From: a virus | Virus record (IMG/VR): IMGVR_UViG_3300021440_000034 | Span: 1-48,438 of that record | Length of the DNA: 48,438 nucleotides | Strand: one strand, 5' to 3' | Shown: positions 1 to 48,438 of the stretch, in pieces | Numbering within the stretch: position 1 is the stretch's first letter | Layout of the letters: each line of letters opens with the position of its first letter | Made by a program: the position numbers and the translations under genes | The notes under the pieces: generated by a model | What the model was told of the DNA's origin: nothing | The model's input: only the letters and a program-made list of their open reading frames with translations | The model's database searches: none

Positions 1-121
1 AGCGCGAGGACTCCGCGTCGATGGTCTGCACCGAGACGTTGACGGCGTTGCCAGACGCCCGCCCGTCCACGCCGCCCGGCCCGCCCATGCTGGCCACCTC
101 GGCGCGGGACAGCACACGCTC
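1..121. repeat. 121-bp exact repeat at window start (copy 1)
   Basis: Bases 1-121 match 42561-42681 base for base; the first difference is at 122 (t against g). The repeat encodes the conserved C-terminal segment of both tape measure proteins. The match begins exactly at the window edge and is 121 bases long, as expected if the contig starts at a branching node of a k-mer assembly graph. That origin is an inference. Confidence 0.9.
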
Positions 122-1657
122 TCCCTGCTGGAGGATGGCCAGGTGCTCGTCTTGCGACATGATGCCGTCGTGGTGGCGAGGGATGCCCACCCAGCCGCCG
201 TCGTGCATGCGCCGCGTCTGGCCGCCTGCCTCAGCTGCGCTGATGCCGGCGCCGATGAGGTTGCCGAGCGGGGCGAGGAAGGCGCCCGCGCCGGGAATCA
301 TCGAGAAGATGGTGGAGAGGATGGAGCCAAACATTCGGCCCACGTCTACCTTTCCGCCCGACATCATCGACTGAATGGCCCCAGCGATGTTGGTGGTGAT
401 GGCCACGCCGATGCGCTCTGTGGCCTGCTCCCACGCCTTCTCGGCCTGGTCGGCCTCGTTCTGGAGGTCATCGCGCACCACAATCATCGAGTCGCCCAGC
501 TTCTTGGTGTCCTCCGCCGACTCCTTGACGGCCTTGTCCCAGGTGCCAACGAAGTGCTTGCCGAACTCCTCGGTGTCCTTCTCCTGCTGCTTGCGGGCCT
601 CTTGCCAGGCCTTCACGACGTCCTTGGCTGCGTTGCCCTCTGCCTTCGCCACCGCGTCGGCGTACTTGGCCGCCTCCTTGGCCCACTCCTCGGCCGCCTT
701 CTTCTTGGCATCGAGCGCCAGCTTGTCGGCGTTGTTGTTGGGGTTGGACGAGGGCAGCTTCTCGGGACCAGCCGCCTTGGCAGCGCGCTCGCGGGCTGCG
801 GCGCTGTTGGGGCCGACGTCGAAGCCCATGAACTCATCGCGCTCGGCCGCCGTCATCTCTGGCGGGAGGTCGTCATCGCTCCACCCGTAGGCGGCTTCCT
901 TCGTGGCGTCGCGCCACCACTTCAGGGCGTAGGACACCTTCTCGATGATGCCCAGCTTCTGCTCCATCTCAACAATCGTCTCTCCGAAGCTCTTCTTGAG
1001 CTGCTCCAGCTCGGCCGCTGAGCGCTTCGAGGCGCCCACCAGCGTCTTGGCCTCGGTGTCGGCTGCGCCGCCCAGCTTGGCGTTGAGGGCCTCGACGTAG
1101 GCGGCGGTGTCCTTGGCGTGGTCGCCCGTCTTCACAATCTCGATACCGAGGGTGCGGAAGGCCTGCTTGGAGGTGTCGCCGGTGGCGATCATCTTCTCCG
1201 TGGCCTCGACGGCGTCCTTCCCGGTGCGCGCCGAGTAGTCGAGGAGGGCCTTGATTGTCTCGTTGATTTTGTCCGGGGCGACGCCGAACTGGTACAGCAT
1301 CATCTGCATCTTCTCTGTCTTGATGTCGTCGGCGCCGTAGGACTTCTCCAGCGCATTCGCCTGCGCCTTGAAGGCCTCCGCCAAATCACCCGTCACCATC
1401 ACCAGCTGCGCTTCAACCTGCTGCTGCTCGGCGTAGAGCTTGATGCTCTCCCTGGCCACCTCGAAGAGTTTCTCTCCGGCCGCCTTCACGATTTCGCCGA
1501 ACTCGTGCCACTTCTCGGCGGCCTTTCCAGCCTCCTCGCCGGTGCGCTTGGCGAGTTGCTCGGACTCGTCACTCAGCTGGCGCAGGCCCTGCGCGGCCTC
1601 GCCCACGGCCTGCTGGCTCTGATTCTCCCCGGTGACTCTCAGCTTGACGTCAGCCAT
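1..1657 (-). CDS. Tape measure protein, allele A (3' end cut by window edge)
   Basis: Tape measure protein setting siphovirus tail length; 552 codons are visible and the last roughly 28 residues lie outside the window, judged from allele B at 42475-44205. The N-terminal half is a charged, Ala-rich helical region (MADVKLRVTGENQSQQ start). A Gly/Ala-rich hydrophobic stretch follows near residues 470-510, then the MHDGGW...QDEHLAILQQGERVLSRAEV type tail-end motif common in phage tape measures. The ATG at 1657 has an AGGAGG ribosome site and overlaps the end of the upstream chaperone extension by eight bases. Against allele B the body is clearly diverged (well under half identical by eye), but the last 40 visible residues are identical. 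Shortish for a tape measure, so a short tail is expected. Confidence 0.88.
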   Translation of the reverse strand, partial: MADVKLRVTGENQSQQAVGEAAQGLRQLSDESEQLAKRTGEEAGKAAEKWHEFGEIVKAAGEKLFEVARESIKLYAEQQQVEAQLVMVTGDLAEAFKAQANALEKSYGADDIKTEKMQMMLYQFGVAPDKINETIKALLDYSARTGKDAVEATEKMIATGDTSKQAFRTLGIEIVKTGDHAKDTAAYVEALNAKLGGAADTEAKTLVGASKRSAAELEQLKKSFGETIVEMEQKLGIIEKVSYALKWWRDATKEAAYGWSDDDLPPEMTAAERDEFMGFDVGPNSAAARERAAKAAGPEKLPSSNPNNNADKLALDAKKKAAEEWAKEAAKYADAVAKAEGNAAKDVVKAWQEARKQQEKDTEEFGKHFVGTWDKAVKESAEDTKKLGDSMIVVRDDLQNEADQAEKAWEQATERIGVAITTNIAGAIQSMMSGGKVDVGRMFGSILSTIFSMIPGAGAFLAPLGNLIGAGISAAEAGGQTRRMHDGGWVGIPRHHDGIMSQDEHLAILQQGERVLSRAEVASMGGPGGVDGRASGNAVNVSVQTIDAESSR

Positions 1658-2057
1658 GTCGCCTCCTCTCTGCGGCCTGCACCGCCCAGATGATGTCGCG
1701 CTCCTGTTTGCACACCGCCAGCGCCTCCGCGTCCCGCGCCGGCCACTCGTCCCATACTCCACCCGAGAAGGGCGGCGCCTCGGGGTGCGCCGAGACGTGG
1801 AAGAAGATGTCCAACTCGCGAGCCACCTTCCGCATCACCTCTGCAGGGGACGCCGTCGCTACCTCGGCCTGAATGGCGAACTCGCCGTCCAGTCGAAAGC
1901 GCGGCTGCGGCGTGGCCTTGTCGTCGGGCGGTGGCTCGAAGCCGACGAAGCCGTGGCGCCTGTCCGTCTCCCACGCTACCGGCCTTCCGTCTTCGCGCTT
2001 TCCCGCTCGGCGCTCTGCGCGCGAGTACCAGAGACACCACCAGAGCGCCACGCGGAG
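1650..2057 (-). CDS. Tail assembly chaperone, T-like frameshift extension (allele A)
   Basis: Second frame of a lambda G/GT-like tail chaperone pair. It lies between tail tube and tape measure, in the -1 frame of the chaperone at 1976-2431. The frame is conserved with allele B (44198-44590) both upstream and downstream of the overlap (RDL.AFL.VALWW, then ERRAG.R.DGRPV and DRRHGFVG.EPP). It could start alone at a GTG at 2051, but conserved codons before that GTG argue for entry by -1 frameshifting near 2057-2060. The predicted fusion is about 260 residues, and such fusions are known to bind the tape measure during tail assembly. The end overlaps the tape measure start. Frameshifting is inferred from layout and conservation, not shown. 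Confidence 0.72.
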   Translation of the reverse strand, partial: LRVALWWCLWYSRAERRAGKREDGRPVAWETDRRHGFVGFEPPPDDKATPQPRFRLDGEFAIQAEVATASPAEVMRKVARELDIFFHVSAHPEAPPFSGGVWDEWPARDAEALAVCKQERDIIWAVQAAERRRHG

Positions 2058-2431
2058 AAATGCGAGAAGGTCCCTCCGAGAGAGTTGAACTCGGCGAGGG
2101 TATTCGTCAGCTCCACCAGATTAAAGAGGCCAGGCGTCGAGAAGCACAACCCCACGTACTTCTCCAGCGTGTCGACGGGCTGGCCGTCCACCACCAGCGG
2201 CTCAGCCCCGAGGCGTACGTACGACTCCAGCGCCTTCGCAGTCGGGGCCACCGAGGCCTCCGGCGTCTCCTTCATGGCCTCACGGTGGGCCATGCCGAAG
2301 GCCTCAAGCTGCGCCTTCGACAGGCCACTGGCCAACTCCAGGTAGAAGCGTCGCCCGGCCGGAAGCTCCAGGTTGTCGCCAAGGTGGGGCTCGAATCGCT
2401 CCCACCGGTACGTCCGCGTCAGGGTCGGCAT
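1976..2431 (-). CDS. Tail assembly chaperone, G-like (allele A)
   Basis: A 151-residue protein in the position of lambda gpG, between tail tube and tape measure. It has no catalytic motif; a mostly helical core (residues about 30-120) is followed by a polar tail. The segment NSLGGTFSHFSAWRSGG near residues 115-131 carries the putative slip codon (codon 125), after which a minority of ribosomes would enter the T-like frame. The start ATG is preceded by AGGAGACGCCC. Allele B (44509-44976) aligns over its full length at moderate identity, with LGGTF.HFS.WRSGG as the best conserved block. Family assignment rests mainly on position and the overlapping-frame layout. Confidence 0.75.
   Translation of the reverse strand: MPTLTRTYRWERFEPHLGDNLELPAGRRFYLELASGLSKAQLEAFGMAHREAMKETPEASVAPTAKALESYVRLGAEPLVVDGQPVDTLEKYVGLCFSTPGLFNLVELTNTLAEFNSLGGTFSHFSAWRSGGVSGTRAQSAERESAKTEGR
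2057..2077 (-). promoter_or_regulatory. Candidate -1 programmed frameshift site (allele A)
   Basis: On the minus strand GGAGGG (2077-2072) is followed after 11 bases by TTTC (2060-2057). A tRNA-Phe on TTC could re-pair with TTT after slipping back one base. A Shine-Dalgarno-like hexamer about 10 bases upstream of a slip site stimulates -1 frameshifting in E. coli dnaX. The same hexamer, spacing and slip tetramer occur in allele B at 44590-44610. There is no classic XXXYYYZ heptamer, so the exact slip codon is uncertain. Confidence 0.5.
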
Positions 2432-2440
2432 GGGCGTCTC

Positions 2441-3646
2441 CTACGTGAGGACAATCGAGAACATGTCGTTGTTGCTGTCGCGGATGCGGAAGCTCAGGTC
2501 CACGATGGCCACGTCGTTGGGCGAGTCAGGCACCTTTGGCGCCACCACTTCGCAGTTGGGCGCGGCCAGCGTCACGATGCCGCCGACGCCAGAGCCCTGC
2601 GCGATGGACACCGCGAGATTCTTGCGCTGCACCGCCTTACCCAGCATCGACACGTCGCTGGTGGACTTCAGCAGCACCTTCGCCGACAGGCTGGCCTCGT
2701 ACCTGGACTCCTTGAAGCCCTGCACGTAGGCGCTGCCCGTCTCGGCCGCACGAAGTGCCAAGCCCGTCTTCAAGTCGAACTTCCAGCCGAGGCACGGCAC
2801 GGCCACGCCGTCGATGCTGACGGTGGCGGTGGCCTCGCTGATGGGGCTGCCGGTGTAGGCAATGCCGGTGGGAATGTACGGCTGAAGCGGCACTGCGCTG
2901 TGCGCCACGCCGGTGCTGCCGAGTTGGGCGCGCGCGATGGTGGTGGAGGTGCTGCCGTAGCCGACGTCGCTGCGGTTGGCGATGAGGATGATTTCCGACT
3001 CGATGAGGTAGTACCCCGCGTCGAGGCGGTAGGACTCTTCGGCGGTGTGCGTCAGCGTGGTGACGACGCCGGAAGCCAGAGTGACGGACAGCAGGTCGCC
3101 GCGGGTGTACTTGCCGATGCCCTGACCGGAGAACTTCGCCTCCACCTCCTTGTCGCCGCCCTCGAGTGACATCTGGCCGACGACGCACCCACGCAGCGTC
3201 TCGCTGAAGTACGTCGAGGGCGCGACGCCCAAGAGGCGCGTCAAGCTGGCCGACGCGAAGTCGCCCGACTCGATGGGCGTGGCGCTGGGCGAGATGGTGA
3301 CGTTGGTGGCCGCGTTGACGGTCTGCTTGAGGCCGGCGGCCTTGTAGAGCACCGCCTCCAGCGGCACCGCGTCGACTGCGCTGCGGCTCTTCAGGGTGGT
3401 GCCAAGGGTGAATGGGAGGGGCTGGTAGCGGCCCTGCACCCAGCCGGTCTGCATCCCGCGGCTGATGGCCCTGTCCTTCTTGGCGCGCACCACCGGATTC
3501 TCGGCGCCGCCGAGGTCCACCTTGGTGAACTCTCTGGCCTGGGCCGCGTAGGCGGCGACGTTGGCGGGGGTGGGAGTGGTGCCGAAGGTCGTCTCAGACA
3601 CAGCGAGGAGTCGGAGGTCCCAACTGTTGATGGGGTTCGTTGCCAT
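2441..3646 (-). CDS. Major tail tube protein (allele A)
   Basis: A 401-residue protein that would polymerise into the tail tube around the tape measure. It is beta-rich, with many short Thr/Val/Gly strands and two similar halves, and sits directly upstream of the chaperone pair as tail tube genes do. The N-terminal 116 codons (3299-3646) are base-for-base identical to the second copy (44986-46197). After that the two proteins diverge but stay clearly homologous throughout, so the switch from identity to divergence falls inside the gene and makes a chimeric boundary. The first residues (MATNPINSWDLRLLAVSETT) look like a normal structural N-terminus. Confident as tail tube by context; no database search was possible. 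Confidence 0.82.
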   Translation of the reverse strand: MATNPINSWDLRLLAVSETTFGTTPTPANVAAYAAQAREFTKVDLGGAENPVVRAKKDRAISRGMQTGWVQGRYQPLPFTLGTTLKSRSAVDAVPLEAVLYKAAGLKQTVNAATNVTISPSATPIESGDFASASLTRLLGVAPSTYFSETLRGCVVGQMSLEGGDKEVEAKFSGQGIGKYTRGDLLSVTLASGVVTTLTHTAEESYRLDAGYYLIESEIILIANRSDVGYGSTSTTIARAQLGSTGVAHSAVPLQPYIPTGIAYTGSPISEATATVSIDGVAVPCLGWKFDLKTGLALRAAETGSAYVQGFKESRYEASLSAKVLLKSTSDVSMLGKAVQRKNLAVSIAQGSGVGGIVTLAAPNCEVVAPKVPDSPNDVAIVDLSFRIRDSNNDMFSIVLT

Positions 3647-3649
3647 GGT

Positions 3650-5032
3650 TCAAGCTCCTGCAGGTCGCGCGAAGACTCGCGCAGTGATTGTGAGTGAGGC
3701 CGTGTCGTAGAGTACGTTCTCGCCTTTGAAACTGAAAGCCTTGCCGGGGATGAAGACGTTGGTAACCTGCACCAGCATCACGTCGCCGAAGCCCTCGTGG
3801 CCGGCGTAGCGGCCCCGCAGCGTGTGCAGCACCTCTCGCACCGCACGCACCACCATCGACACGCCCTCGCGGCTGCGGTGGGTGCCCATTCCAAGCTCAG
3901 GCTTGAAGCAGAGAATGGGGATGGTGACGAGGTACTCGTACCGGCGGAGCGGCTCAATCTGGACAGACTGCCTCTCGTCGAGGATGAGCCAGAAGGCCTG
4001 CCCAGTCTCAGGCGAGGCCATCGGCCAGCCGTCCATCACCCCGGCGTTGGTGGGCGCCACGAGGGCGCTGTAGAGCACCGTCTCGCCGCCGGGGCTCCAG
4101 CCGAGGATGAGGTTGGCTCCAGTGGTGTCGGCGAGGGCACAGACGACGCTGGGGGCGTCCTGCGCAGGCTTTGCGCTGGCCGTGAGAATCACCCGCCCAT
4201 CCCTGTCGAAGGTAGCCACGAGGCCCGGCGGACTGGCGCTGTTGATGTCGAAGGCGACCTGGGCCGCAGTGCGAGTGCCGGCTGTCATCGCGCAGGTGGT
4301 GGGCGACGATCCGTCCCTGTTGATGCCCAGCTTCAGCGAGGTGGCGGCAGGGAAGGTGAAGGGCTCGACGTAGGCAGACTTCAGCACCGCGGGCCGCAGG
4401 GTGTTCAGCTCCGCCACCTTGGCCGGCAGGAACATCAACAGGTGCTCTCTGATGGCCTGCACCGCGATGTCCTCGTAGCCGAGGCCGTCTGAGGTAGCCG
4501 CAGCACCAGCCACCGGGTAGGGCCAGCCAAAGCCGCCGCTGTACTGCAGAGGGTAGGCACCGGCCGGCGCGTCGAGGCGGTAGGCCACGCCGGTGGTGAG
4601 GTCCGACGCCGACGGCGTGAAGACGTAGAGGCCAGTTGTCGGCGAGGTGATGGCCGGCGGCGTGCGCGCGTTGAGGCTGGCGTCCTCGTAGACAGGCAGC
4701 GTTGGGGCTGCGCCACTCCACAGTGCGCCTTGGTTGTCTTCCAGCTCGATGCAGCCGAAGGGGGCGCCTGGGACAAACTGCGCCCCGTAGGTGCGCCTCG
4801 GCATGAGCTGCAGCGCACCTCCCACGTCGTTGTCGATGAGGTAGACGACTCCGCGCGCAAGGTCTGCGTCTGGAATCCAGAAGGAGAAGAGGCCGCCGCC
4901 GAGGTTGAGGATGGTGGGCTGCGCCAGCGCGGTGCCGTCCCGCAGGCCGTAGAAGAGCCACGCAGGTGTCGCCGATGGCGCGGGGGTGCCATCACCAGTC
5001 TCGACCAACCACGGTGGTAGGAGCACGGCCAT
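3650..5032 (-). CDS. Multidomain neck protein with tail-terminator-like C-terminus
   Basis: A 460-residue protein between neck genes and the tail tube, where a tail terminator is expected. Two related N-terminal beta modules (about residues 25-75 and 118-165) share a pattern of Gly-rich strand, then DLA.GV.Y or DLTTGVAY, then a Gly-Ala turn; they resemble small beta-sandwich modules inserted in virion proteins. A middle domain (about 205-290; TAGTRTAAQVAFDIN) follows. The last 120 residues (QSVQIEPLRRYEYLVTIPIL onward, with an REGVSMVVRAVREVLHTL helix) resemble the size and pattern of terminator or minor tail proteins. The ATG at 5032 overlaps the upstream stop (ATGA). It is duplicated exactly at 46201-47583. 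Function is from position and weak similarity. Confidence 0.6.
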   Translation of the reverse strand: MAVLLPPWLVETGDGTPAPSATPAWLFYGLRDGTALAQPTILNLGGGLFSFWIPDADLARGVVYLIDNDVGGALQLMPRRTYGAQFVPGAPFGCIELEDNQGALWSGAAPTLPVYEDASLNARTPPAITSPTTGLYVFTPSASDLTTGVAYRLDAPAGAYPLQYSGGFGWPYPVAGAAATSDGLGYEDIAVQAIREHLLMFLPAKVAELNTLRPAVLKSAYVEPFTFPAATSLKLGINRDGSSPTTCAMTAGTRTAAQVAFDINSASPPGLVATFDRDGRVILTASAKPAQDAPSVVCALADTTGANLILGWSPGGETVLYSALVAPTNAGVMDGWPMASPETGQAFWLILDERQSVQIEPLRRYEYLVTIPILCFKPELGMGTHRSREGVSMVVRAVREVLHTLRGRYAGHEGFGDVMLVQVTNVFIPGKAFSFKGENVLYDTASLTITARVFARPAGA

Positions 5033-5271
5033 CAGGGCACCGGGTCAGGAGCCAGAACGATGTCTGGCAGTGAGTCGAGATGGGCCTTGAACTGGGCCTG
5101 CTTGGTGGCCGCGAAGTCGGCCGGCGCCGCCGCGTCTTGCGCGTCCCGCTTGGCCAGCCACTCCTGAAGCACGTTCACGGCGTCGCCGATTTGCACGCGC
5201 ATCTGCTCGCGAGTGGTGGCCGCCTTGACTGCGGTGATGAGATCCTTTGCCGACTGTCTGCCGATGCCCAT
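5032..5271 (-). CDS. Small neck-region protein, unknown
   Basis: A 79-residue protein starting MGIGRQSAKDLITAVK. The ATG at 5271 is preferred over an upstream in-frame start at 5340 because AAGGAG lies seven bases before it and the upstream codons overlap the previous gene in another frame. It is mostly helical and charged, without motifs; it could be a small tail-completion or chaperone-like protein, but that is only position. It overlaps the next gene by ATGA, so translation is probably coupled. Confidence 0.6.
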   Translation of the reverse strand: MGIGRQSAKDLITAVKAATTREQMRVQIGDAVNVLQEWLAKRDAQDAAAPADFAATKQAQFKAHLDSLPDIVLAPDPVP

Positions 5272-5272
5272 T

Positions 5273-5602
5273 TCAGCACTCCTTCGCTTCGCCGTTGGTG
5301 ATGAAGCCGTGCCACGCACAGCCGCCGACGCGCAGCACACTGGGCGTCAGCGTCAGCGTTTCGAGCGTCTCACCCGTGCGCTGCCAGCCGTGGCGCGGGT
5401 CGTCGTCGGGCGGTGGCTTGCCGTCGAGAGGGTTACGGAAGGGCACATAGAGCTGGCCCTGGCAGTTCGGCCGGCCGCCGCATGGACAGTTGAGCGCGAG
5501 GCCCACGCCGGGGCGAAAGGCGATGGGCTCGCCCGTCTTTGAGTTGAAGACGCCCTCGCCGCCGTAGCCGAGGAAGTGCGCTTCGAGGTCGATCAGCTTC
5601 AT
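5273..5602 (-). CDS. DUF6527-like Cys-containing small protein
   Basis: A 109-residue protein starting MKLIDLEAHFLGY at an ATG at 5602, 16 bases after a GGAGG sequence; an in-frame start at 5710 would need 36 more residues that look like out-of-frame sequence. It has a CPCGG..NCQGQ element, then a conserved Trp, then LTPSVLR...GCAWHGFITNGE. This order (CPCG, central W, PS, C.WH.FI.NG) matches small phage proteins of the DUF6527 kind as I know them, probably zinc-binding. It lies among neck genes with no known function. The family call is from memory of the pattern. Confidence 0.6.
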   Translation of the reverse strand: MKLIDLEAHFLGYGGEGVFNSKTGEPIAFRPGVGLALNCPCGGRPNCQGQLYVPFRNPLDGKPPPDDDPRHGWQRTGETLETLTLTPSVLRVGGCAWHGFITNGEAKEC

Positions 5603-6750
5603 AAGAGGCCACCGACCTCCCACGCAAAGCAGGTCGCCGCCGTCGCGTTGGCGGTGCAGCTCGCGGTGAAGCTCCCCGCCGCGCGCGTGGTGACCGCGAG
5701 CTCCTTGCACGTCGTGTCGCGGCTGAGCGGGGTGATCTGAACGAAGCTCGAGGCGGTGGCCAGCGAGTTGGTGATGACCGCCGAGCTCGCACCGATGGCG
5801 ATACAGCTGATGCCGCGCGGCTTGTTCACCGTGGCGGCTCCAGGGGTTCCGCTGGTGTCGGTACCGGCGGCGCTCTGGAGGCCGTTGGTAGCAATGCGGA
5901 AGGTGTTCCCGAAGGTGCCAGATTCAGAATACGTAATCTGCGAGGTGTCGAGCGTGAGCGCGGTCGTGCTCCACTTCAACGAGGTTCCTACGGTGTTGTT
6001 GATGCCGAGAGACCCAGAGGTGCCGGCGCCCAGAAGATTAAACCCTCCGTTCGCGCCCTTTCTGATCTGAAGCGCCGGTACCTCTGTCCCACCGATTCCG
6101 GTGCTTACCTGCAGAAGTGTCGCCCCGGCGTTGACCGTGCCGTCGGCGACGCTCGTGCCCATGGTGTTGAGCACGTCGGTCGCGCCGGAGCCCAGGCCGT
6201 TCGGCCCGGTGAAGGTGTTCCCGGTGGTGGTGACGTTGATGCCGCCGGTCAGCGTGGTGAGGCTCGCCGTCGTCGTAGTGAAGCTGATCGATGGGTTGCC
6301 GGGCCCGTAGTAGCTCGTCGTGCCGCCGCCGCCGGCGTTGTAAATCAACGCCTTCAAGACTCCGGCGTTCGACCAGCCGATGCCGTTCGCGCCCCAGCGA
6401 TACCAACCCATGGTGGGGTCAGACGAGAATGAGTAGCTCGGGAGAGCCGCGGTGCCGTCTGTCGCTCTGATGCCTGCGTCGGCGATCAGAATCCCCTGCA
6501 CTGTCGCCCCGCCGTCGACCCAGAGCGGGCCAGCGATCCCAGACTGAAGCACGACCCCGCCGTCGAACACCTTGAGGCCCGCGAAAACCTGCTCCCCCGG
6601 ACCGATGCTGACGACTCCGCGGCGCACCTTCGACGCGTCGGGCGGAGGAGAAGGCATCGGGTCGGCGTGCGCCAGGAGCGCGACGAGGGCGACCATCAGG
6701 ACGACGAGGCCGCCGGCGATGGCAAGGCTGCGACGAAAAGCGGGGCTCAT
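5599..6750 (-). CDS. Fibre-like protein with N-terminal membrane or signal segment
   Basis: A 383-residue protein. Residues 9-28 form a strongly hydrophobic segment after RR (MSPAFRRSLAIAGG...), followed by AHADP, so a signal peptide or membrane anchor is predicted. The body is a low-complexity Gly/Thr/Ser beta repeat. It includes a SFSSDPTMGWYRWGANGIGW element typical of phage fibres, which often carry SFS.D...G.YR..AN.IGFS. The C-terminus (ISCIAIGASSAVITNSLATA...FTASCTANATA...F.WEV) resembles fibre heads. A virion fibre with an export signal is odd, because virion proteins normally assemble in the cytoplasm. The second, exact copy breaks off at the window end inside this gene. Confidence 0.65.
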   Translation of the reverse strand: MSPAFRRSLAIAGGLVVLMVALVALLAHADPMPSPPPDASKVRRGVVSIGPGEQVFAGLKVFDGGVVLQSGIAGPLWVDGGATVQGILIADAGIRATDGTAALPSYSFSSDPTMGWYRWGANGIGWSNAGVLKALIYNAGGGGTTSYYGPGNPSISFTTTTASLTTLTGGINVTTTGNTFTGPNGLGSGATDVLNTMGTSVADGTVNAGATLLQVSTGIGGTEVPALQIRKGANGGFNLLGAGTSGSLGINNTVGTSLKWSTTALTLDTSQITYSESGTFGNTFRIATNGLQSAAGTDTSGTPGAATVNKPRGISCIAIGASSAVITNSLATASSFVQITPLSRDTTCKELAVTTRAAGSFTASCTANATAATCFAWEVGGLL

Positions 6751-8893: not shown

Positions 8894-9880
8894 TTACGCG
8901 ACCACGGTGCGCAACAGGTAGCCCGCGGCGAACTTGGTGGACGAGGACGACTCCACCATGCCGGGGGCCAGGGCCCACTCAGAGCCGACCTGAACGAAGC
9001 GGGCCGGGCCGGCAGGGCCCATGCGCTTCGGGTCGGGAGTGACGGTCACCCAGAACGGCGAGTCCATCAGCGCCATCACGCCGAAAGACACATCCTCCAG
9101 CGCGACGCTGGGGTTGTACTTGAAGAGCACCACGTTGTCGGCGCCGTAGAAGCCGCCCAGCGACTCCGCGATGCCTTCCAGCTTGGCCGAGTAGCGGCCG
9201 GTGCTGATGAAGAGGTGGTCGACGCCGAGGTAGGCCTGCACCAGCTCCTGTGGCACCGGGCCCGCCTTGGTGTACATCGTGCGGGTGCGGAGGTTGGGGG
9301 ACGTCTGCAGCTTCCTGAAGCACGCGATGTCCATCACGATGGCGTTGCAGGGGGTGACGCCGCCGCCGATGTAGTTTCGCACGGCCTCCTGCGCGGTGAT
9401 GATGTCGGCTTCGGGGTCGCCACCGGCCTCGTTCCACCGGCTGCCCGAGGCGATGGCCGAGGTCAGCGCGGTGGGGTAGTTGGCGGTGTTGGTCACCAGC
9501 GCGGCGGCCTGATACTCGCGGCCGATGAGAATCTGGTTGGTGATCTGCTTGATCTTGCGCGCATCGCCGAGCAGCGACTTGATGTCCGCATCGCGCTCAT
9601 CGCGGGGGTTCACCCAGCCGCCCAGCTTCTTCTCCTTGAGGGAGACGTTGCTGGCGAAGAGCTGCTCGTCCACCGTGTCGGGCTCAGCCATCGTGCCCTT
9701 GTCGATGTTGACGAGCTTCAGCTTGCTCAGGTCGACTTGGTAGAACTTCTTGTCCGCCTTGTCGACAGGCTTCGGGGCGAAGAGCTTGTCCGCCACATAG
9801 GCGGAGGCGTCCACCATGAAGTCGAAGGCGATGTCTTCCTGCGGGGTGCGAGTGACGAATGCTGAGCGGTCGTAAGGCAT
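8894..9880 (-). CDS. Major capsid protein
   Basis: A 328-residue protein, of normal size for a HK97-fold capsid without a long delta domain. It follows the protease/scaffold and decoration genes and precedes neck genes. Features include a DIAFDFMVDASAYVADKLF start, an extended-arm-like region with PDTVDEQLF, a long helix around KSLLGDARKIKQITNQILIG, NAIVMDIACFRKLQTSPN in the peripheral domain, and GFYGADNVVLFKYNP. Size and order fit capsids of phages with Mu-like or lambda-like head genes. Assignment is by synteny and pattern, with good confidence. Confidence 0.82.
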   Translation of the reverse strand: MPYDRSAFVTRTPQEDIAFDFMVDASAYVADKLFAPKPVDKADKKFYQVDLSKLKLVNIDKGTMAEPDTVDEQLFASNVSLKEKKLGGWVNPRDERDADIKSLLGDARKIKQITNQILIGREYQAAALVTNTANYPTALTSAIASGSRWNEAGGDPEADIITAQEAVRNYIGGGVTPCNAIVMDIACFRKLQTSPNLRTRTMYTKAGPVPQELVQAYLGVDHLFISTGRYSAKLEGIAESLGGFYGADNVVLFKYNPSVALEDVSFGVMALMDSPFWVTVTPDPKRMGPAGPARFVQVGSEWALAPGMVESSSSTKFAAGYLLRTVVA

Positions 9881-13696: not shown

Positions 13697-13698
13697 GG

Positions 13699-14184
13699 TC
13701 AGGCTCCGGTGCAGGAGAAGTGGAAGGTGCCCGACAGCCCCACGTAGTGCGGGTCGTAGGCGTAGAGGGTGAAGCCGGTGGCATTCACGAGGTCCGTCAC
13801 CATGAAGGACATGCCAGCCACCAGGTGGACCTCGGCGGTGTTGGCGGCAGAGGTACTTGAGGCCCACTGCGGCGAGCAGACGACCTTGCTGGTGGGCGTC
13901 ACCCACGTCTGCCCGGTGACGATGGTGGAGGCCACCGGGCCGTTGAACGTCACATCCACGCCGACGACGTTGGCGCTGCCCGAGCCGCCGCCCGAGATGG
14001 TGCAGTCCGTGCGCGTGGCCCCGGCGTTGTCGACGCACGCAACACCCGCGCCCGTGAAGTTGATGGTGGTGCGAGCGGTGAGTGGCGTGGCCTCATCCTG
14101 CACCGTGGCGTACCCACCACCCGACGACGAGCCTGGGCCGGGAGAGAAACCGGAGAGCAGCATCAGCAGGAGTAGGTCGAACAT
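13699..14184 (-). CDS. Fibre-like protein with short hydrophobic N-terminus
   Basis: A 161-residue protein. The N-terminus MFDLLLLMLLSGFSPG is a short, weak signal peptide or anchor. YATVQDEATPLTARTTINFTGAGVACVDNAGATRTDCTI (about 25-63) is a very common element of phage fibres (VQDEG.PL..R..INF.G.GV...D). The rest is beta-like (MSFMVTDLVNATGFTLYAYDPHYVGLSGTFHFSC). It sits in a run of three similar proteins and overlaps its neighbours closely. A fibre or decoration role is likely. Confidence 0.62.
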   Translation of the reverse strand: MFDLLLLMLLSGFSPGPGSSSGGGYATVQDEATPLTARTTINFTGAGVACVDNAGATRTDCTISGGGSGSANVVGVDVTFNGPVASTIVTGQTWVTPTSKVVCSPQWASSTSAANTAEVHLVAGMSFMVTDLVNATGFTLYAYDPHYVGLSGTFHFSCTGA

Positions 14185-14192
14185 GGTGTGCC

Positions 14193-33796: not shown

Positions 33797-33808
33797 CCTC
33801 GGCCACTC

Positions 33809-33829
33809 GCGGGAGGGCCCACCTCCCGC
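33809..33829 (+). terminator. Perfect GC-rich hairpin after 32468-33796
   Basis: GCGGGAGG (33809-33816) pairs fully with CCTCCCGC (33822-33829) around a five-base loop, 13 bases after the stop. There is no T tract, so it may be Rho-assisted or a 3' stabiliser. Confidence 0.45.
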
Positions 33830-33857
33830 TACCACCACCCGCAACAAAGAGGAGCAC

Positions 33858-34605: not shown

Positions 34606-36336
34606 ATGGACGAGAAAGTGCGAAAGCTTCTGATCAAGGACGTGTCCGACAAGTTCGACGCCGTGCTGGCTTCGAAGGCTGGCGAGAAACCAAAGCCCTT
34701 CACCGAGACGCTGCAGGCCATCGTCACCGGAGAGACAGACGAGGCTCGCAAAGAGCGCGAGGAGAAGGTGGCCGCCCAGGTCGGCAGCGTCTTCGGGGAC
34801 CCATCTCCGGTGCGCATCATCGCCGTCGACGACCTCTCTGAGTCGCCGACCAATCCTCGCACCAGATTCGAGGGGCTCGATGAGCTCGGGGCCTCAATGC
34901 TGGCCGGCGTTCTGGTGCCCCTCATCGTTCGCCCGAAGTCGAACCAGCCGAGCGACAGCTACGAGATCATCGCTGGCCACCGGCGCTTCAGGGCCGCGAA
35001 GCTCGTCGGCATCTCGCACCTCCCGTGCGACGTCCGGAGCTTCACCGATGTGCAGGTGGTTGAAGCCCAGGCCATCGAGAACCTGCAGCGGGTAGACCTC
35101 GACGCCCTGGAGGAGGCGGCCAGCTACGAGTCGCTGCGCAAGCACGACTGGAGCGTTGAGCAGATCGCTTCCAAAACTGGACGAAGCCCCTCCCTGGTTC
35201 GCAGCCGCCTCCGCCTCCTGACGTTGGCCCCAGAGGCCATGGCGGCCCTGCGCGACGGTGTCCTGCCGCACTCGGTCGCCGTCCCGCTCTCCCGCATCCC
35301 CCATGCGAAACAGGCCGAGGCGGTGAAGGAGTTCAAGGCCGAGCAGAAGAGCCAGGGCAGCGTCAACGCCAGACAGGCCATCGACTGGCTACAGCGGGAC
35401 TTCACGCGCAACCTGAAGGGCGCCAGCTTCGACATCAAGGACGAAATGCTCGACACCGTGGCAGGCGCCTGCTCCACGTGCCCGAAGAACTCGGCCAACG
35501 GACAAGCTGGGTTCGAGGATCTCCAGGGCGCCGGGAAGGTGTGCACCGACGTCCAGTGCTTCAACGGCAAGGCCGAAGCAGCATGGGTGCAAACGTCTGC
35601 GAAGCTCAAAGAGGAGGGCTACGAGGTCCTCTCCAAGGCCGAGGGTGCCGAGTTGTTCCAGCACGGACACCTTGGCTATGACTCCAAGTTCGTCGAACTG
35701 TCTGTGGTCAACAACGAGGATCCGAAGCGGCGAAGCTGGGGCGAGTTGGTGGACAAGATGCCAGAGGACCAGCGCCCGATGGTGGTTGCTGCACCGGATC
35801 GCGACCTCAAGATTCACCACCTCGTCGAGCGCAAGAAGGTCGTCGAGAAGCTGGCAGACGGCGGAACCAAGTGGGCCCAGGAGAAGGTGGCAGAGAAGAA
35901 GAAGGCCACCAAGGAGCGGGTCAAGGAGCGAGAGCACAAGGAGGCCATCGAGTTGGAGAACGAGGTCTTGGCTGGACTCGCCTCCAGCATCGCCAGCAAG
36001 CTGATGCGGGTGGAGACGCTCAAACCAGTCTGGCACCTGCTGGCCTCGTACCTCGCCTACGACTACCTCCCAGCCGGCGTGCTCAAGGCGATGGGGCTCA
36101 AGGCCGATGACGTGCTGGAGGAGATCGACAAGGGCAAGGACTCAGAGTTCTTCGCGTCCCTGGTGCTGGCCATGTCGATGATTGAAGCGCCAGATCGCCA
36201 GGACGAAAAGCTCTTCGGACCATACATGAACAAGCTCGCCGGGCACTTCGATCTGAAGCTCAAGGACATCGAGGCTGCCAAACTGGAGGAGCGCGCCAAG
36301 GCCGCTGGCGAAGTGAAGCCCAGGAAGACCAAGTAG
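34606..36336 (+). CDS. ParB/RepB-like DNA-binding protein
   Basis: A 576-residue protein. SPTNPR (80-85), then GHRRFRA (124-130; the GxxRxxA CTP-binding motif of ParB) and ENLQRVDLDALEEAASY follow. A helix-turn-helix (WSVEQIASKTGRSPSLVRSRL, about 182-202) ends the core, as in ParB. It continues with Cys pairs (ACSTCPKN, CTDVQCFNG) and a long helical part rich in Lys/Glu. Phage ParB-like proteins of this kind exist with unknown role; a partition function needs a ParA, which I do not see here. It may clamp DNA or coat it. Leader CCAAGGGAAGGAACACCA. Confidence 0.78.
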   Translation: MDEKVRKLLIKDVSDKFDAVLASKAGEKPKPFTETLQAIVTGETDEARKEREEKVAAQVGSVFGDPSPVRIIAVDDLSESPTNPRTRFEGLDELGASMLAGVLVPLIVRPKSNQPSDSYEIIAGHRRFRAAKLVGISHLPCDVRSFTDVQVVEAQAIENLQRVDLDALEEAASYESLRKHDWSVEQIASKTGRSPSLVRSRLRLLTLAPEAMAALRDGVLPHSVAVPLSRIPHAKQAEAVKEFKAEQKSQGSVNARQAIDWLQRDFTRNLKGASFDIKDEMLDTVAGACSTCPKNSANGQAGFEDLQGAGKVCTDVQCFNGKAEAAWVQTSAKLKEEGYEVLSKAEGAELFQHGHLGYDSKFVELSVVNNEDPKRRSWGELVDKMPEDQRPMVVAAPDRDLKIHHLVERKKVVEKLADGGTKWAQEKVAEKKKATKERVKEREHKEAIELENEVLAGLASSIASKLMRVETLKPVWHLLASYLAYDYLPAGVLKAMGLKADDVLEEIDKGKDSEFFASLVLAMSMIEAPDRQDEKLFGPYMNKLAGHFDLKLKDIEAAKLEERAKAAGEVKPRKTK

Positions 36337-42474: not shown

Positions 42475-44205
42475 TCACATCCCGAAGAGGGGCCGCAACT
42501 GGCCGCGCCCCGTGCGTACCGCGTTGAAGATGGCTCGGCCGCCGCGTCGCTCGAAGTACGAGCGCGAGGACTCCGCGTCGATGGTCTGCACCGAGACGTT
42601 GACGGCGTTGCCAGACGCCCGCCCGTCCACGCCGCCCGGCCCGCCCATGCTGGCCACCTCGGCGCGGGACAGCACACGCTCGCCCTGCTGGAGGATTGCG
42701 ACGTGCTCATCCTGCGCCAGCACGCCAGAGTGGTGGCGTGGAATGCCGTCGACCCATCCGCCATCGTGCATGGTATTGACTCCTGCGGATAGGAGCCCGC
42801 CAAGCGCACCACCAATCTGGCCGCCGAATCCCGGAAGCAGCACGTTGCCGACGATGGACAGGATGCTCTGGAGGATTGACCCCATCATCCGCTTCGCGTC
42901 GAACTTGCCGCCCTCCATCATTGACTGGATGGCGCCGGCGATGTTGGTGACGATGGAGGCGCCGATGGCCTCGGTGGCTGACTTCCATGTCTCCTGCATC
43001 TTGATGGCGTTGTCCTCTGACTTCTTGACGGCTTGGTCCCAGGTGGTGAACTCCTCGGCCCGCTTCGACATCAGGTCCTCTTCGTACTTCATCTCCTTCT
43101 TGACGGCGTCGCCCTGAGCCTTCACCTCGTCACCCAGGAGCTGCATCCTGCGCTTGTGGTCATCCTCCTCGATGGCCATCTGCAGCTCTTCGTCCTTCTT
43201 CCAGTCCTCGTGGGTGCGCTTGTTGGCGGCGTCGAGCGCGGTTTGGTACTTCAGCGCCTCGGCAGCCGCCCCGCTCTTGGCCTTGCTGGTCTGGCCTGCG
43301 TTGGGGTTGGTGGTGCTCCCAGGCATGTTGAGGGGAGGGGCTGGAGCACCACCAAGCTCTGGGAAGGTTGGGATGGCCCCAAGGTCTTCGCCTGTGATTG
43401 GGTCGTAGCTGTGGCCCACTGCTCCGGTGAGGAGGTTCACCTTCTGAGAGTCTGGCGCCGCGATGTTGGACAGCGCAGTCTTCAGCTTGTCGAGGACGCC
43501 GTACCGCCTGTCTACGTCGTCGATGAACGCGCCAAACTTCTTCTGCAGGTTCTCGAACTCTACGCCGACGGCATGGACGCGCCCACCGAGCCCCTTGGCG
43601 TCCTCCTCTGCCGCGCCGCCCATCTTCTCCTTGAGCTGGTCGACGTACAGCATCACGTCCTTCGACTTGTCGCCGGTCGATTCGATGGCGGTGGTGATGC
43701 CCTTAAAGGCGTTCTTGCCTGAGTCCACCGACATCGTGAGGTGCTGGGTGGCCTCCACTGCGTCGACACCCATGCGCGACGAGTAGTCGATGAGGGCCTC
43801 GACCGTCTCGTTGATCTTCCCTGGGGCGACGCCGAACTGGTAGAGCATCATCTGCATTCTCTCGGTCTTGACCGTGTCGATGCCGACGGACTTCTCCAGC
43901 TCCTCTGCCTGCTTCTTGTATGCCTCGGCGAGGGACCCAGCGACCATCTCAAGCTGCCTGTCGATGCGCTCCTGCTCTGCGTAGGCCTTCACCGACTCCT
44001 TGGTGAACTCGACCAGCATCTCAAGGCCCTTCTTGATGCCCTCCTTGAGTTCATCCCAAGCCGCAACGGAGAGGCCGATCTTGTGGGCCATCTCCTCCTG
44101 CACCTTCTCAGACATCTCGCCGAGCGACTCAAGGCCGTGCTTGGCCTCGTCGATGGCTCCCTTGGCTTCGTTCCTCCCGTTGATGTTGAGTTTGATGTCA
44201 GCCAC
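42475..44205 (-). CDS. Tape measure protein, allele B
   Basis: A complete 576-residue tape measure protein. Helical N-terminus (MADIKLNINGRNEAKGAIDE; MLYQFGVAPGKINETVEALI), two Gly-rich hydrophobic stretches near 480-505 (NVLLPGFGGQIGGALGGLLS), then VDGIPRHHSGVLAQDEHVAI and QQGERVLSRAEVASMGG close to the end. The body differs strongly from allele A (1-1657), but the C-terminal 40 residues encoded in 42561-42681 are identical. Short for a tape measure, predicting a tail of only about 80-90 nm if about 0.15 nm per residue holds. It connects to the distal tail genes downstream, unlike allele A, which is cut at the window edge. Confidence 0.88.
   Translation of the reverse strand: MADIKLNINGRNEAKGAIDEAKHGLESLGEMSEKVQEEMAHKIGLSVAAWDELKEGIKKGLEMLVEFTKESVKAYAEQERIDRQLEMVAGSLAEAYKKQAEELEKSVGIDTVKTERMQMMLYQFGVAPGKINETVEALIDYSSRMGVDAVEATQHLTMSVDSGKNAFKGITTAIESTGDKSKDVMLYVDQLKEKMGGAAEEDAKGLGGRVHAVGVEFENLQKKFGAFIDDVDRRYGVLDKLKTALSNIAAPDSQKVNLLTGAVGHSYDPITGEDLGAIPTFPELGGAPAPPLNMPGSTTNPNAGQTSKAKSGAAAEALKYQTALDAANKRTHEDWKKDEELQMAIEEDDHKRRMQLLGDEVKAQGDAVKKEMKYEEDLMSKRAEEFTTWDQAVKKSEDNAIKMQETWKSATEAIGASIVTNIAGAIQSMMEGGKFDAKRMMGSILQSILSIVGNVLLPGFGGQIGGALGGLLSAGVNTMHDGGWVDGIPRHHSGVLAQDEHVAILQQGERVLSRAEVASMGGPGGVDGRASGNAVNVSVQTIDAESSRSYFERRGGRAIFNAVRTGRGQLRPLFGM
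42561..42681. repeat. 121-bp exact repeat (copy 2)
   Basis: Matches 1-121 exactly (offset 42560). It lies near the 3' end of the tape measure gene allele B. It is the left anchor that lets allele A join the same downstream genes. Note that the offset is 42560 here and 42551 at the other anchor, so the two cassettes differ by nine bases in length. Confidence 0.9.
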
Positions 44206-44590
44206 GGCGGCGCTCCTCTGCTCTCTGAACTTCCCTGATGATAGCAGTCTCTTGCTGCATCACGGCCAGCACCTGGGTGGCTCGCGCTGGCCACGCATCC
44301 CAGACGCCTCCGCTGAAGGCCGGTGCCTCGTGGCCTGCGACGTGGAAGTAGAAGTCGAACTCCCTGCGCGTCTTCTCCATCAGCTCCGCCGGCGTGGCCA
44401 TGGCCACCTCGCGCGGCAGCTTGTCGAGGACGAAGCGCGGCTGTGGCGTGGCGTTGCCGGCCGGCGGCTCGTAGCCGACGAAGCCGTGCCGCCTATCTGC
44501 CACCCAGCTCACCGGGCGTCCGTCTGGGCGCTGTCCTGCTCGACGCTCTGGGCGCGCGTACCAAAGTCCCCACCAGAGCGCCACTTGGAG
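44198..44590 (-). CDS. Tail assembly chaperone, T-like frameshift extension (allele B)
   Basis: The counterpart of 1650-2057. The frame is conserved with allele A from before the overlap onward (WRDLRAFLQVALWW, RPERRAGQRPDGRPVSW, DRRHGFVGYEPP and FSGGVWDAWPARA), which is what a true coding frame after a -1 shift would show. The open frame extends farther upstream (to 44953), but that part is Arg/Gly-rich shadow sequence of the G-like frame. The fusion product would be about 259 residues. The end overlaps the tape measure start by eight bases. Confidence 0.72.
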   Translation of the reverse strand, partial: LQVALWWGLWYARPERRAGQRPDGRPVSWVADRRHGFVGYEPPAGNATPQPRFVLDKLPREVAMATPAELMEKTRREFDFYFHVAGHEAPAFSGGVWDAWPARATQVLAVMQQETAIIREVQRAEERRRG

Positions 44591-44976
44591 AAATGCGCGA
44601 AGGTCCCTCCAAGCTCGTTGTACTCGCGTACGGTGCGAGTCATCTCCAGCAGGTTGAAGAGTCCAGCCATCGAGAGGCACAACTCCACATACTGCTCCAG
44701 CGTGGCGACTGGCTTGCCGTCCACCAGCAGCGGCTCCGCGCCCATGCGGACGAAGGGGGCCAGCGCATCCGTCATCGGCTTCACCGAGCGCGAGAAGTCC
44801 TTGGCGTCGTTGCTGGCATTCATCGCGGCCACCTGCGCGTCCTGAAACGCGACGAGCTGGGCCTTGGTGAGGCTGGCGTTGACCTCCAAGTAGAAGCGCT
44901 TGGCCTGCGGCTGGGTGAGGTTGTTGCCCAGCCTGGGCTCCAGTCGCTCCCATCTGTCGATGCTGATGTCTGGCAT
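44509..44976 (-). CDS. Tail assembly chaperone, G-like (allele B)
   Basis: A 155-residue homologue of 1976-2431. Shared features include R.ER..P.LG.NL, a YLE..A.L.KAQL motif, VDG.PV.TLE.YV.LC, and LGGTFAHFSKWRSGG near residues 123-137. It starts at an ATG at 44976 and lies ten bases after the tail tube stop. The role is the same as for allele A. Confidence 0.75.
   Translation of the reverse strand: MPDISIDRWERLEPRLGNNLTQPQAKRFYLEVNASLTKAQLVAFQDAQVAAMNASNDAKDFSRSVKPMTDALAPFVRMGAEPLLVDGKPVATLEQYVELCLSMAGLFNLLEMTRTVREYNELGGTFAHFSKWRSGGDFGTRAQSVEQDSAQTDAR
44590..44610 (-). promoter_or_regulatory. Candidate -1 frameshift site (allele B)
   Basis: Same arrangement as at 2057-2077: GGAGGG (44610-44605), an 11-base spacer, TTTC (44593-44590). 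It is kept between two alleles whose flanks have diverged, which supports function. Codon 129 of the G-like gene is the TTC. Confidence 0.5.
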
Positions 44977-44985
44977 GGCTCCCTC

Positions 44986-46197
44986 TTAGGTCAGCGTGAT
45001 GGTGAACATGTCGTTTGAGCCCGAGTCCCTGATGCGGAAGGCGATGTCCACCAGCGCGATGTCATTGGCGGTGTCGGGCACCTTCGGCGGGATGACCTCG
45101 CAGTTGGCCGCGGCCAGCGTGACGATGCTGCCGGTGCCGACGCCCTGTACGATGGAGACGGCCACGTTCTTCCGCTGCACTGCCTTCCCCAGCATCGACA
45201 CGTCGCTGGTGCCCTTGAGCTGCACCTTCGCAGAGAGGTTGGCCTCGTAGCGCACTTCCTTGGGGCCCTGGACGTAGGCGCTTCCAGTCTCGGCCGCGCG
45301 CAGCATGAGGCCCGTCTTCACGTCGAGCTTCCAGTTGAGGGCCGGGATGGCCACGCCGTCGATGGTGACGGTGGCGGTGGCCTCGCTGATGGGGCTGCCG
45401 GTGTAGGCGATGCCGGTGGGGATGTAGGGCTGCATCGGCACCGCGCTGTGCGCCACGCCGGTGCTGCCGAGCTGGGCGCGTGCGATGGTGGTGGAGGTGC
45501 TGCCGTAGCCGATGTTGGTGCGGCTGCTGATGAGGATGATCTCCGACTCGATGAGGTAGTAGCCGGCGTCGAGCCGGTAGCTCTCTTCGGCGGTGTGCGT
45601 CAGCGTGGTGACGACACCGGACGCGAGCGTCACCGAGAGGAGGTCGCCCTGGGTGTTCTTCCCGACGCCCTGCCCAGAGAAGGTCGCCTCCACTTCCTTG
45701 TCTCCGCCCTCCAGCGTCATCTGGGAGACGACGCAGCCGCGCAGCGTCTCGGCGAAGTAGGTGGACGGGCTGGTGCCCAGCAGGCGCGTGAAGCTCGCAG
45801 AGGCGAAGTCCGCGGCCGTCTCCAGCGGGGTGGGGCTGGGCGCGATGACGACGTTGGTGGCCGCGTTGACGGTCTGCTTGAGGCCGGCGGCCTTGTAGAG
45901 CACCGCCTCCAGCGGCACCGCGTCGACTGCGCTGCGGCTCTTCAGGGTGGTGCCAAGGGTGAATGGGAGGGGCTGGTAGCGGCCCTGCACCCAGCCGGTC
46001 TGCATCCCGCGGCTGATGGCCCTGTCCTTCTTGGCGCGCACCACCGGATTCTCGGCGCCGCCGAGGTCCACCTTGGTGAACTCTCTGGCCTGGGCCGCGT
46101 AGGCGGCGACGTTGGCGGGGGTGGGAGTGGTGCCGAAGGTCGTCTCAGACACAGCGAGGAGTCGGAGGTCCCAACTGTTGATGGGGTTCGTTGCCAT
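44986..46197 (-). CDS. Major tail tube protein (allele B)
   Basis: A 403-residue copy of the tail tube protein at 2441-3646. The first 116 codons are identical in DNA; the remaining 287 residues are homologous but differ at many positions, mostly conservative, with a few changes in length (APSPTPLETAADF against SPSATPIESGDF). Because both copies begin in identical DNA, each cassette makes its own C-terminal tube part that may need to match its own chaperone and tape measure. Confidence 0.82.
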   Translation of the reverse strand: MATNPINSWDLRLLAVSETTFGTTPTPANVAAYAAQAREFTKVDLGGAENPVVRAKKDRAISRGMQTGWVQGRYQPLPFTLGTTLKSRSAVDAVPLEAVLYKAAGLKQTVNAATNVVIAPSPTPLETAADFASASFTRLLGTSPSTYFAETLRGCVVSQMTLEGGDKEVEATFSGQGVGKNTQGDLLSVTLASGVVTTLTHTAEESYRLDAGYYLIESEIILISSRTNIGYGSTSTTIARAQLGSTGVAHSAVPMQPYIPTGIAYTGSPISEATATVTIDGVAIPALNWKLDVKTGLMLRAAETGSAYVQGPKEVRYEANLSAKVQLKGTSDVSMLGKAVQRKNVAVSIVQGVGTGSIVTLAAANCEVIPPKVPDTANDIALVDIAFRIRDSGSNDMFTITLT

Positions 46198-46200
46198 GGT

Positions 46201-47583
46201 TCAAGCTCCTGCAGGTCGCGCGAAGACTCGCGCAGTGATTGTGAGTGAGGCCGTGTCGTAGAGTACGTTCTCGCCTTTGAAACTGAAAGCCTTGCCGGGG
46301 ATGAAGACGTTGGTAACCTGCACCAGCATCACGTCGCCGAAGCCCTCGTGGCCGGCGTAGCGGCCCCGCAGCGTGTGCAGCACCTCTCGCACCGCACGCA
46401 CCACCATCGACACGCCCTCGCGGCTGCGGTGGGTGCCCATTCCAAGCTCAGGCTTGAAGCAGAGAATGGGGATGGTGACGAGGTACTCGTACCGGCGGAG
46501 CGGCTCAATCTGGACAGACTGCCTCTCGTCGAGGATGAGCCAGAAGGCCTGCCCAGTCTCAGGCGAGGCCATCGGCCAGCCGTCCATCACCCCGGCGTTG
46601 GTGGGCGCCACGAGGGCGCTGTAGAGCACCGTCTCGCCGCCGGGGCTCCAGCCGAGGATGAGGTTGGCTCCAGTGGTGTCGGCGAGGGCACAGACGACGC
46701 TGGGGGCGTCCTGCGCAGGCTTTGCGCTGGCCGTGAGAATCACCCGCCCATCCCTGTCGAAGGTAGCCACGAGGCCCGGCGGACTGGCGCTGTTGATGTC
46801 GAAGGCGACCTGGGCCGCAGTGCGAGTGCCGGCTGTCATCGCGCAGGTGGTGGGCGACGATCCGTCCCTGTTGATGCCCAGCTTCAGCGAGGTGGCGGCA
46901 GGGAAGGTGAAGGGCTCGACGTAGGCAGACTTCAGCACCGCGGGCCGCAGGGTGTTCAGCTCCGCCACCTTGGCCGGCAGGAACATCAACAGGTGCTCTC
47001 TGATGGCCTGCACCGCGATGTCCTCGTAGCCGAGGCCGTCTGAGGTAGCCGCAGCACCAGCCACCGGGTAGGGCCAGCCAAAGCCGCCGCTGTACTGCAG
47101 AGGGTAGGCACCGGCCGGCGCGTCGAGGCGGTAGGCCACGCCGGTGGTGAGGTCCGACGCCGACGGCGTGAAGACGTAGAGGCCAGTTGTCGGCGAGGTG
47201 ATGGCCGGCGGCGTGCGCGCGTTGAGGCTGGCGTCCTCGTAGACAGGCAGCGTTGGGGCTGCGCCACTCCACAGTGCGCCTTGGTTGTCTTCCAGCTCGA
47301 TGCAGCCGAAGGGGGCGCCTGGGACAAACTGCGCCCCGTAGGTGCGCCTCGGCATGAGCTGCAGCGCACCTCCCACGTCGTTGTCGATGAGGTAGACGAC
47401 TCCGCGCGCAAGGTCTGCGTCTGGAATCCAGAAGGAGAAGAGGCCGCCGCCGAGGTTGAGGATGGTGGGCTGCGCCAGCGCGGTGCCGTCCCGCAGGCCG
47501 TAGAAGAGCCACGCAGGTGTCGCCGATGGCGCGGGGGTGCCATCACCAGTCTCGACCAACCACGGTGGTAGGAGCACGGCCAT
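46201..47583 (-). CDS. Multidomain neck protein (exact copy of 3650-5032)
   Basis: The same 460-residue protein as at 3650-5032; sequence and start are identical. If the window is a circular genome read past its origin, this is not a second gene but the same one. If the genome is truly duplicated, there are two copies. Confidence 0.6.
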   Translation of the reverse strand: MAVLLPPWLVETGDGTPAPSATPAWLFYGLRDGTALAQPTILNLGGGLFSFWIPDADLARGVVYLIDNDVGGALQLMPRRTYGAQFVPGAPFGCIELEDNQGALWSGAAPTLPVYEDASLNARTPPAITSPTTGLYVFTPSASDLTTGVAYRLDAPAGAYPLQYSGGFGWPYPVAGAAATSDGLGYEDIAVQAIREHLLMFLPAKVAELNTLRPAVLKSAYVEPFTFPAATSLKLGINRDGSSPTTCAMTAGTRTAAQVAFDINSASPPGLVATFDRDGRVILTASAKPAQDAPSVVCALADTTGANLILGWSPGGETVLYSALVAPTNAGVMDGWPMASPETGQAFWLILDERQSVQIEPLRRYEYLVTIPILCFKPELGMGTHRSREGVSMVVRAVREVLHTLRGRYAGHEGFGDVMLVQVTNVFIPGKAFSFKGENVLYDTASLTITARVFARPAGA

Positions 47584-47822
47584 CAGGGCACCGGGTCAGG
47601 AGCCAGAACGATGTCTGGCAGTGAGTCGAGATGGGCCTTGAACTGGGCCTGCTTGGTGGCCGCGAAGTCGGCCGGCGCCGCCGCGTCTTGCGCGTCCCGC
47701 TTGGCCAGCCACTCCTGAAGCACGTTCACGGCGTCGCCGATTTGCACGCGCATCTGCTCGCGAGTGGTGGCCGCCTTGACTGCGGTGATGAGATCCTTTG
47801 CCGACTGTCTGCCGATGCCCAT
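47583..47822 (-). CDS. Small neck-region protein (exact copy of 5032-5271)
   Basis: Exact duplicate of the 79-residue protein at 5032-5271, with the same ATG context. See the note on the repeat. Confidence 0.58.
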   Translation of the reverse strand: MGIGRQSAKDLITAVKAATTREQMRVQIGDAVNVLQEWLAKRDAQDAAAPADFAATKQAQFKAHLDSLPDIVLAPDPVP

Positions 47823-47823
47823 T

Positions 47824-48153
47824 TCAGCACTCCTTCGCTTCGCCGTTGGTGATGAAGCCGTGCCACGCACAGCCGCCGACGCGCAGCACACTGGGCGTCA
47901 GCGTCAGCGTTTCGAGCGTCTCACCCGTGCGCTGCCAGCCGTGGCGCGGGTCGTCGTCGGGCGGTGGCTTGCCGTCGAGAGGGTTACGGAAGGGCACATA
48001 GAGCTGGCCCTGGCAGTTCGGCCGGCCGCCGCATGGACAGTTGAGCGCGAGGCCCACGCCGGGGCGAAAGGCGATGGGCTCGCCCGTCTTTGAGTTGAAG
48101 ACGCCCTCGCCGCCGTAGCCGAGGAAGTGCGCTTCGAGGTCGATCAGCTTCAT
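47824..48153 (-). CDS. DUF6527-like protein (exact copy of 5273-5602)
   Basis: Exact duplicate of the 109-residue Cys-containing protein at 5273-5602. Confidence 0.58.
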   Translation of the reverse strand: MKLIDLEAHFLGYGGEGVFNSKTGEPIAFRPGVGLALNCPCGGRPNCQGQLYVPFRNPLDGKPPPDDDPRHGWQRTGETLETLTLTPSVLRVGGCAWHGFITNGEAKEC

Positions 48154-48438
48154 AAGAGGCCACCGACCTCCCACGCAAAGCAGGTCGCCGCCGTCGCGTT
48201 GGCGGTGCAGCTCGCGGTGAAGCTCCCCGCCGCGCGCGTGGTGACCGCGAGCTCCTTGCACGTCGTGTCGCGGCTGAGCGGGGTGATCTGAACGAAGCTC
48301 GAGGCGGTGGCCAGCGAGTTGGTGATGACCGCCGAGCTCGCACCGATGGCGATACAGCTGATGCCGCGCGGCTTGTTCACCGTGGCGGCTCCAGGGGTTC
48401 CGCTGGTGTCGGTACCGGCGGCGCTCTGGAGGCCGTTG
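48150..48438 (-). CDS. Fibre-like protein, partial copy (5' end cut by window edge)
   Basis: The C-terminal 95 codons of the fibre-like gene whose full form is at 5599-6750. It includes the ISCIAIGASSAVITNSLATA block and the EVGGLL end. The N-terminus lies beyond the window. Identical to copy 1 over the shared length. Confidence 0.6.
   Translation of the reverse strand, partial: NGLQSAAGTDTSGTPGAATVNKPRGISCIAIGASSAVITNSLATASSFVQITPLSRDTTCKELAVTTRAAGSFTASCTANATAATCFAWEVGGLL

Follow-up and report, generated by a model that had tools for sequence, protein, structure and literature searches.

Two diverged versions of a tail tube, chaperone and tape measure block between identical flanks in a metagenomic phage record

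Exchangeable tail genes in described phages

Near-identical phages are known to swap blocks of genes. Bellas et al. (2020) described near-identical phage cores whose interchangeable homologous gene variants coexist in one metagenome; the tape measure gene was among the variable genes, and its further variants shared 78% and 81% identity with the first (PMC7468147). In a 2026 study of honeybee phages, the tape measure gene was among those most often tied to metagenomic islands, and chaperone genes were also island-associated, in one phage (PMC13331135). Given these precedents, the locus analysed here belongs to a kind of variation that has already been described. As in the flexible homologous modules of the Bellas type, diverged homologous versions of genes, the tape measure included, lie within a near-identical core: the overlapping flanks were found to be 100% identical and the arms between them to share mostly 41-92% DNA identity. 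Unlike these modules, the island spans four adjacent tail frames, from the C-terminus of the tail tube to the tape measure; a single contig contains both of its versions, and no close relative of the phage is present in the collections searched. As a natural example it is clean: the joints are sharp, and between them the C-terminus of the tube, the chaperones and the tape measure all differ as a set, in a phage that carries its own YqaJ and RecT genes.

Isolated phages were available for comparison. The tape measure of the second version (allele B, Table 1) matched 11 Rhodobacter capsulatus phages by tblastn, and the records of nine of these were read for gene content. All nine contain a single tube gene, a single chaperone pair with an annotated joined product and a single tape measure gene. 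The genomes of the Rhodobacter phages (37.6-42.1 kb) show the tail gene order of the closed circle described below; the group has cohesive ends (PMC8601537). These phages are distant from the phage studied here, clear alignment being obtained for the tape measures only.

Among them, RcBaka was compared with RcOceanus and RcKvothe. The DNA is ~99% identical over most head and tail genes and ~65% identical in the body of the tape measure gene; the island of RcKvothe reaches further than that of RcOceanus. The tape measure frames are intact in all three (RcBaka, 631 aa; RcOceanus, 624 aa; RcKvothe, 642 aa), and, relative to that of RcBaka, the protein is 83% identical in RcOceanus and 79% identical in RcKvothe, with terminase and tube at least 99% identical. 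The isolates, each with a single copy, thereby show an event of this kind as well: a diverged tape measure block that is flanked by near-identical DNA. They resemble the present locus in this and in the order of their tail genes. They differ from it in extent: in the RcC cluster phages the island lies essentially within the tape measure gene and the tube is ~99% identical, whereas the island described here includes the C-terminus of the tube and the chaperones. Further stretches of lower identity among the Rhodobacter phages were seen at RcBaka 15605-17590 and 22075-22536; these cover minor tail, peptidase and GTA TIM-barrel genes and a downstream hypothetical gene. Strains B10 and St. Louis reportedly yield no plaques with RcOceanus, and its smaller genome was suggested as the cause (PMC8601537); the tape measure island is a candidate alternative cause of this difference in plating.

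Anchors, arms and genes of the tail block

The window, i.e. the whole stretch of DNA analysed, is the complete IMG/VR record IMGVR_UViG_3300021440_000034 (48,438 nt), which IMG/VR classes as linear. Two pairs of exact anchors enclose two diverged arms (Table 1). By sequence comparison within the window, identity stops sharply at the anchors, with no further matching base on either side. The right anchor pair (2589 bp) is 100% identical, synonymous sites included; a chance origin is ruled out, since 2589 identical bases are impossible between sequences that are ~80% alike. The left anchor may represent a single assembly k-mer, being of odd length (121 bp) and beginning at the start of the contig. 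The window holds no further repeat of anchor size, and other common 31-mers were found only in the tube arms (2818-3067).

Table 1. Positions of the anchors, the arms and the genes discussed (window coordinates unless stated otherwise).
Feature	Positions	Strand	Remarks
Left anchor, copy 1	1-121		exact match to 42561-42681; within C-terminal end of tape measure gene
Left anchor, copy 2	42561-42681		exact match to 1-121
Right anchor, copy 1	3299-5887		exact match to 45850-48438; tube N-terminus and upstream genes
Right anchor, copy 2	45850-48438		exact match to 3299-5887; stops at record end
Arm A, allele A of tail block	122-3298		3177 bp; diverged from arm B
Arm B, allele B of tail block	42682-45849		3168 bp; diverged from arm A
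Gene upstream of tube	3650-5032; second copy 46201-47583	-	460 aa
Tail tube, allele A	2441-3646	-	401 aa; Phage_tube_2, E 1.4e-4, below Pfam cut-off
Tail tube, allele B	44986-46197	-	403 aa
G-like chaperone, allele A	1976-2431	-	151 aa; named by position
G-like chaperone, allele B	44509-44976	-	155 aa; named by position
T-like chaperone frame, allele A	1650-2051	-	-1 frame relative to G; named by position
T-like chaperone frame, allele B	44198-44599	-	named by position
Tape measure, allele A	1-1657	-	cut by record end; 580 aa once continued into 42560-42475
Tape measure, allele B	42475-44205	-	576 aa; weak PHROG tape measure matches; tblastn matches to Rhodobacter phage tape measures
Major capsid protein	8894-9880	-	phrog_1005, E 5e-35
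Portal with Mu F-like C-terminal part	15666-18056	-	796 aa; Mu portal family, Mu F family at C-terminus
Terminase large subunit	18100-19665	-	best named-phage match 45% identical
YqaJ/RecE-like recombination exonuclease	29577-30770	+	PF09588, E 1.7e-19; phrog_434, E 7e-67
RecT-like single-strand annealing protein	30611-31858	+	PF03837, E 8e-35; phrog_2780
RcBaka tape measure gene	12330-14225 (RcBaka)		body diverged from RcOceanus and RcKvothe; surroundings ~99% identical

The arms align end to end. Their GC contents are 0.662 (arm A) and 0.643 (arm B), that of the shared part being 0.658. Per 100 alignment columns, DNA identity is mostly 77-92% in the tube, 54-81% in the G- and T-like frames and 41-79% in the tape measure. 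The products of the two tube genes share 87% identity, with the first ~116 residues the same, and those of the T-like frames 66%; for the tape measure, 52% identity was found overall. In comparisons between the alleles, dS is above dN in every window of G and T and in the majority of tape measure windows. In tube codons 211-300 (window 2441-3298) dS is 0.15-0.30, versus ~0.6-1.0 in most other windows of the tube arms, and this low value may, to judge from the sequence, be a trace of an older internal exchange.

The first-pass annotation had placed the anchors correctly to the base, and its claim that both arms carry the same genes in the same order (tube C-terminus, G-like, T-like, tape measure) was borne out. 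Its estimate by eye that the tape measure bodies and G-like proteins are well under half identical holds roughly for the former (45%) but not for the latter (59%). It had also proposed that chimeric tube and tape measure proteins are made: the joints between identity and divergence do fall inside these two genes, but each allele is an ordinary open frame, the genes of both being whole once the tape measure of allele A is continued past the end of the record.

All genes of the tail block lie on the minus strand. The G-like and T-like proteins gave no family match in PHROG and Pfam profile scans, and their names rest on position and on the overlapping -1 frames, an arrangement that is annotated in the Rhodobacter phages. 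The starts of the G and T frames in allele A (2431 and 2051) are 380 bases apart, which corresponds to a -1 frame; the overlaps are at 1976-2051 (A) and 44509-44599 (B), and both frames are open in both alleles. In this the block is like the G/GT chaperones of the lambda type, in which T lies in the -1 frame overlapping the end of G. It differs from them in the slippery heptamer of the overlap: no X XXY YYZ motif common to both alleles was present in the stretches scanned, and a GGGAAAG in allele A is out of register and missing from B. Translation of the T frame may depend on an unusual slip or begin at an internal GTG start.

Closure of the record and readings of the two arms

Each end of the record cuts a gene, and the missing part is supplied exactly by the opposite end. 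At base 1 the tape measure gene of allele A is interrupted 86 bp before its end, and positions 42560-42475 complete it, in frame and with an identical C-terminus; the second copy of the gene at 5599-6750 breaks off at 48438 and becomes whole when read on from 5888. The resulting circles measure 42,560 bp through arm A and 42,551 bp through arm B. Either contains one cassette, with a whole gene over the joint and a gene list that is equal apart from the arms, and closure restores the order head, neck, tube, chaperones, tape measure and distal tail. From its sequence, the record is best read as a phage genome of ~42.55 kb that closes as a circle and was read ~1.14 times round. The linear class given by IMG/VR presumably stems from the interruption of the end overlap by the diverged arms; a diverged pair of alleles can hide the circularity of a complete phage genome.

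Very probably, the two arms are alleles from one population that were exchanged by homologous recombination and threaded by the assembler into one contig. The sampled population would hold two versions of a single block reaching from the tube C-terminus to the tape measure, and the genes outside it would be common to both alleles. The assembler would have entered the contig by way of arm A, followed the shared 39.4 kb to arm B and gone on from there to cover 2589 bp of the shared part again, so that both arms came to lie in one contig. The alleles themselves would have arisen by block replacement through homologous recombination between related phages, a process that could be served by the phage's own YqaJ exonuclease and RecT annealing protein, the genes of which adjoin each other. 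Two alleles at one locus had been the simpler of the readings offered in the first-pass annotation, and this is well supported by the mutually completing ends, by the whole genes at the joints of the circles and by the single-copy isolates with the same island.

To judge from other phages, interactions among tube, chaperones and tape measure in tail assembly probably cause the block to move as a unit; its diversity probably persists because host envelope proteins are contacted by the tape measure as DNA enters and because defence systems can target this protein. In lambda, a mutation in the tape measure abolishes the requirement for ManYZ, and the defence nuclease SNIPE associates with tape measures (PMC13190303). 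In view of these observations, variation in the host membrane partner or in defence appears a reasonable source of selection on the block.

The more novel reading, namely that one genome carries two diverged tube-chaperone-tape measure blocks that are exchanged via the flanking identical repeats and used in turn, would account for the presence of both versions in a single contig with frames open where visible, but is highly improbable. Cassette A stops at the end of the record, and only sequence of the other copy makes it whole, so two complete cassettes were not found on one molecule; a linear record with two modules would leave an incomplete tape measure gene at one end and an incomplete upstream gene at the other, and would break the gene order between the head and distal tail genes. 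The two ends of the record fit each other exactly. Over its 2589 bp the right anchor is identical even at synonymous sites, whereas the chaperones and the tape measure differ strongly, and no second cassette was present in any of the nine related records read. The proposed function as a tail-length module did not hold either: with 580 and 576 aa the tape measures hardly differ in length, which makes a tail-length switch unlikely, and this idea was rejected.

Terminal heterozygotes are known in permuted phages, and the overlap of ~5.9 kb might represent a terminal redundancy. In that case, a recombining concatemer packaged by the headful mechanism would have produced real molecules of ~48 kb in which allele A occupies one end and allele B the other. 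Such molecules would still require two alleles in the population and a redundancy of ~14%, which would be large, and they are accordingly given very little probability. Misassembly of two less related phages with conserved stretches in common, to which the strong divergence of the arms could point, is the least probable of all, given 2589 bp and 121 bp of complete identity and two circles that close with whole genes; a milder form, in which two strains also differ at other sites collapsed by the assembler, is compatible with the two-allele reading preferred here.

Searches for relatives and other genes of the record

Single-protein searches of viral contigs with the product of the 460-aa gene, each tape measure, the terminase and the capsid protein yielded no relative, nor did alignment queries with the tape measure (viral and genome contigs) or the tube (genome contigs). 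An alignment of the terminase retrieved 598 relatives in IMG/VR, the best ~48% identical; among named phages the best identity was 45%. These were too distant to serve as a comparison set for the two arms; in 25 of the 598 records the tube gave no match and the tape measure two weak matches only. An exact 33-mer from the region of the right anchor occurred in no other viral record. By these sequence searches, the phage is without a close relative in the collections covered. No second record of it with one arm was found, which means little since the collections may omit near-identical records.

The remaining genes include those for head morphogenesis and recombination listed in Table 1. No match to an integrase, invertase or transposase was obtained among the proteins scanned (small genes in part). 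The 796-aa portal protein looks, from its two family matches, like a fusion, and the true start of the RecT gene probably lies downstream of 30611. On the opposite strand of the RecT gene region, a 1062-aa open frame (30746-33934, minus strand) gave no PHROG or Pfam match and is probably a spurious frame of GC-rich DNA. The protein encoded at 22362-23900 (minus strand) has matches to ParB-like as well as DNA methyltransferase families (phrog_498, E 4e-113); a Dam-type methylase is encoded at 23999-24553 (minus strand) and a second ParB-like protein at 34606-36336 (plus strand).
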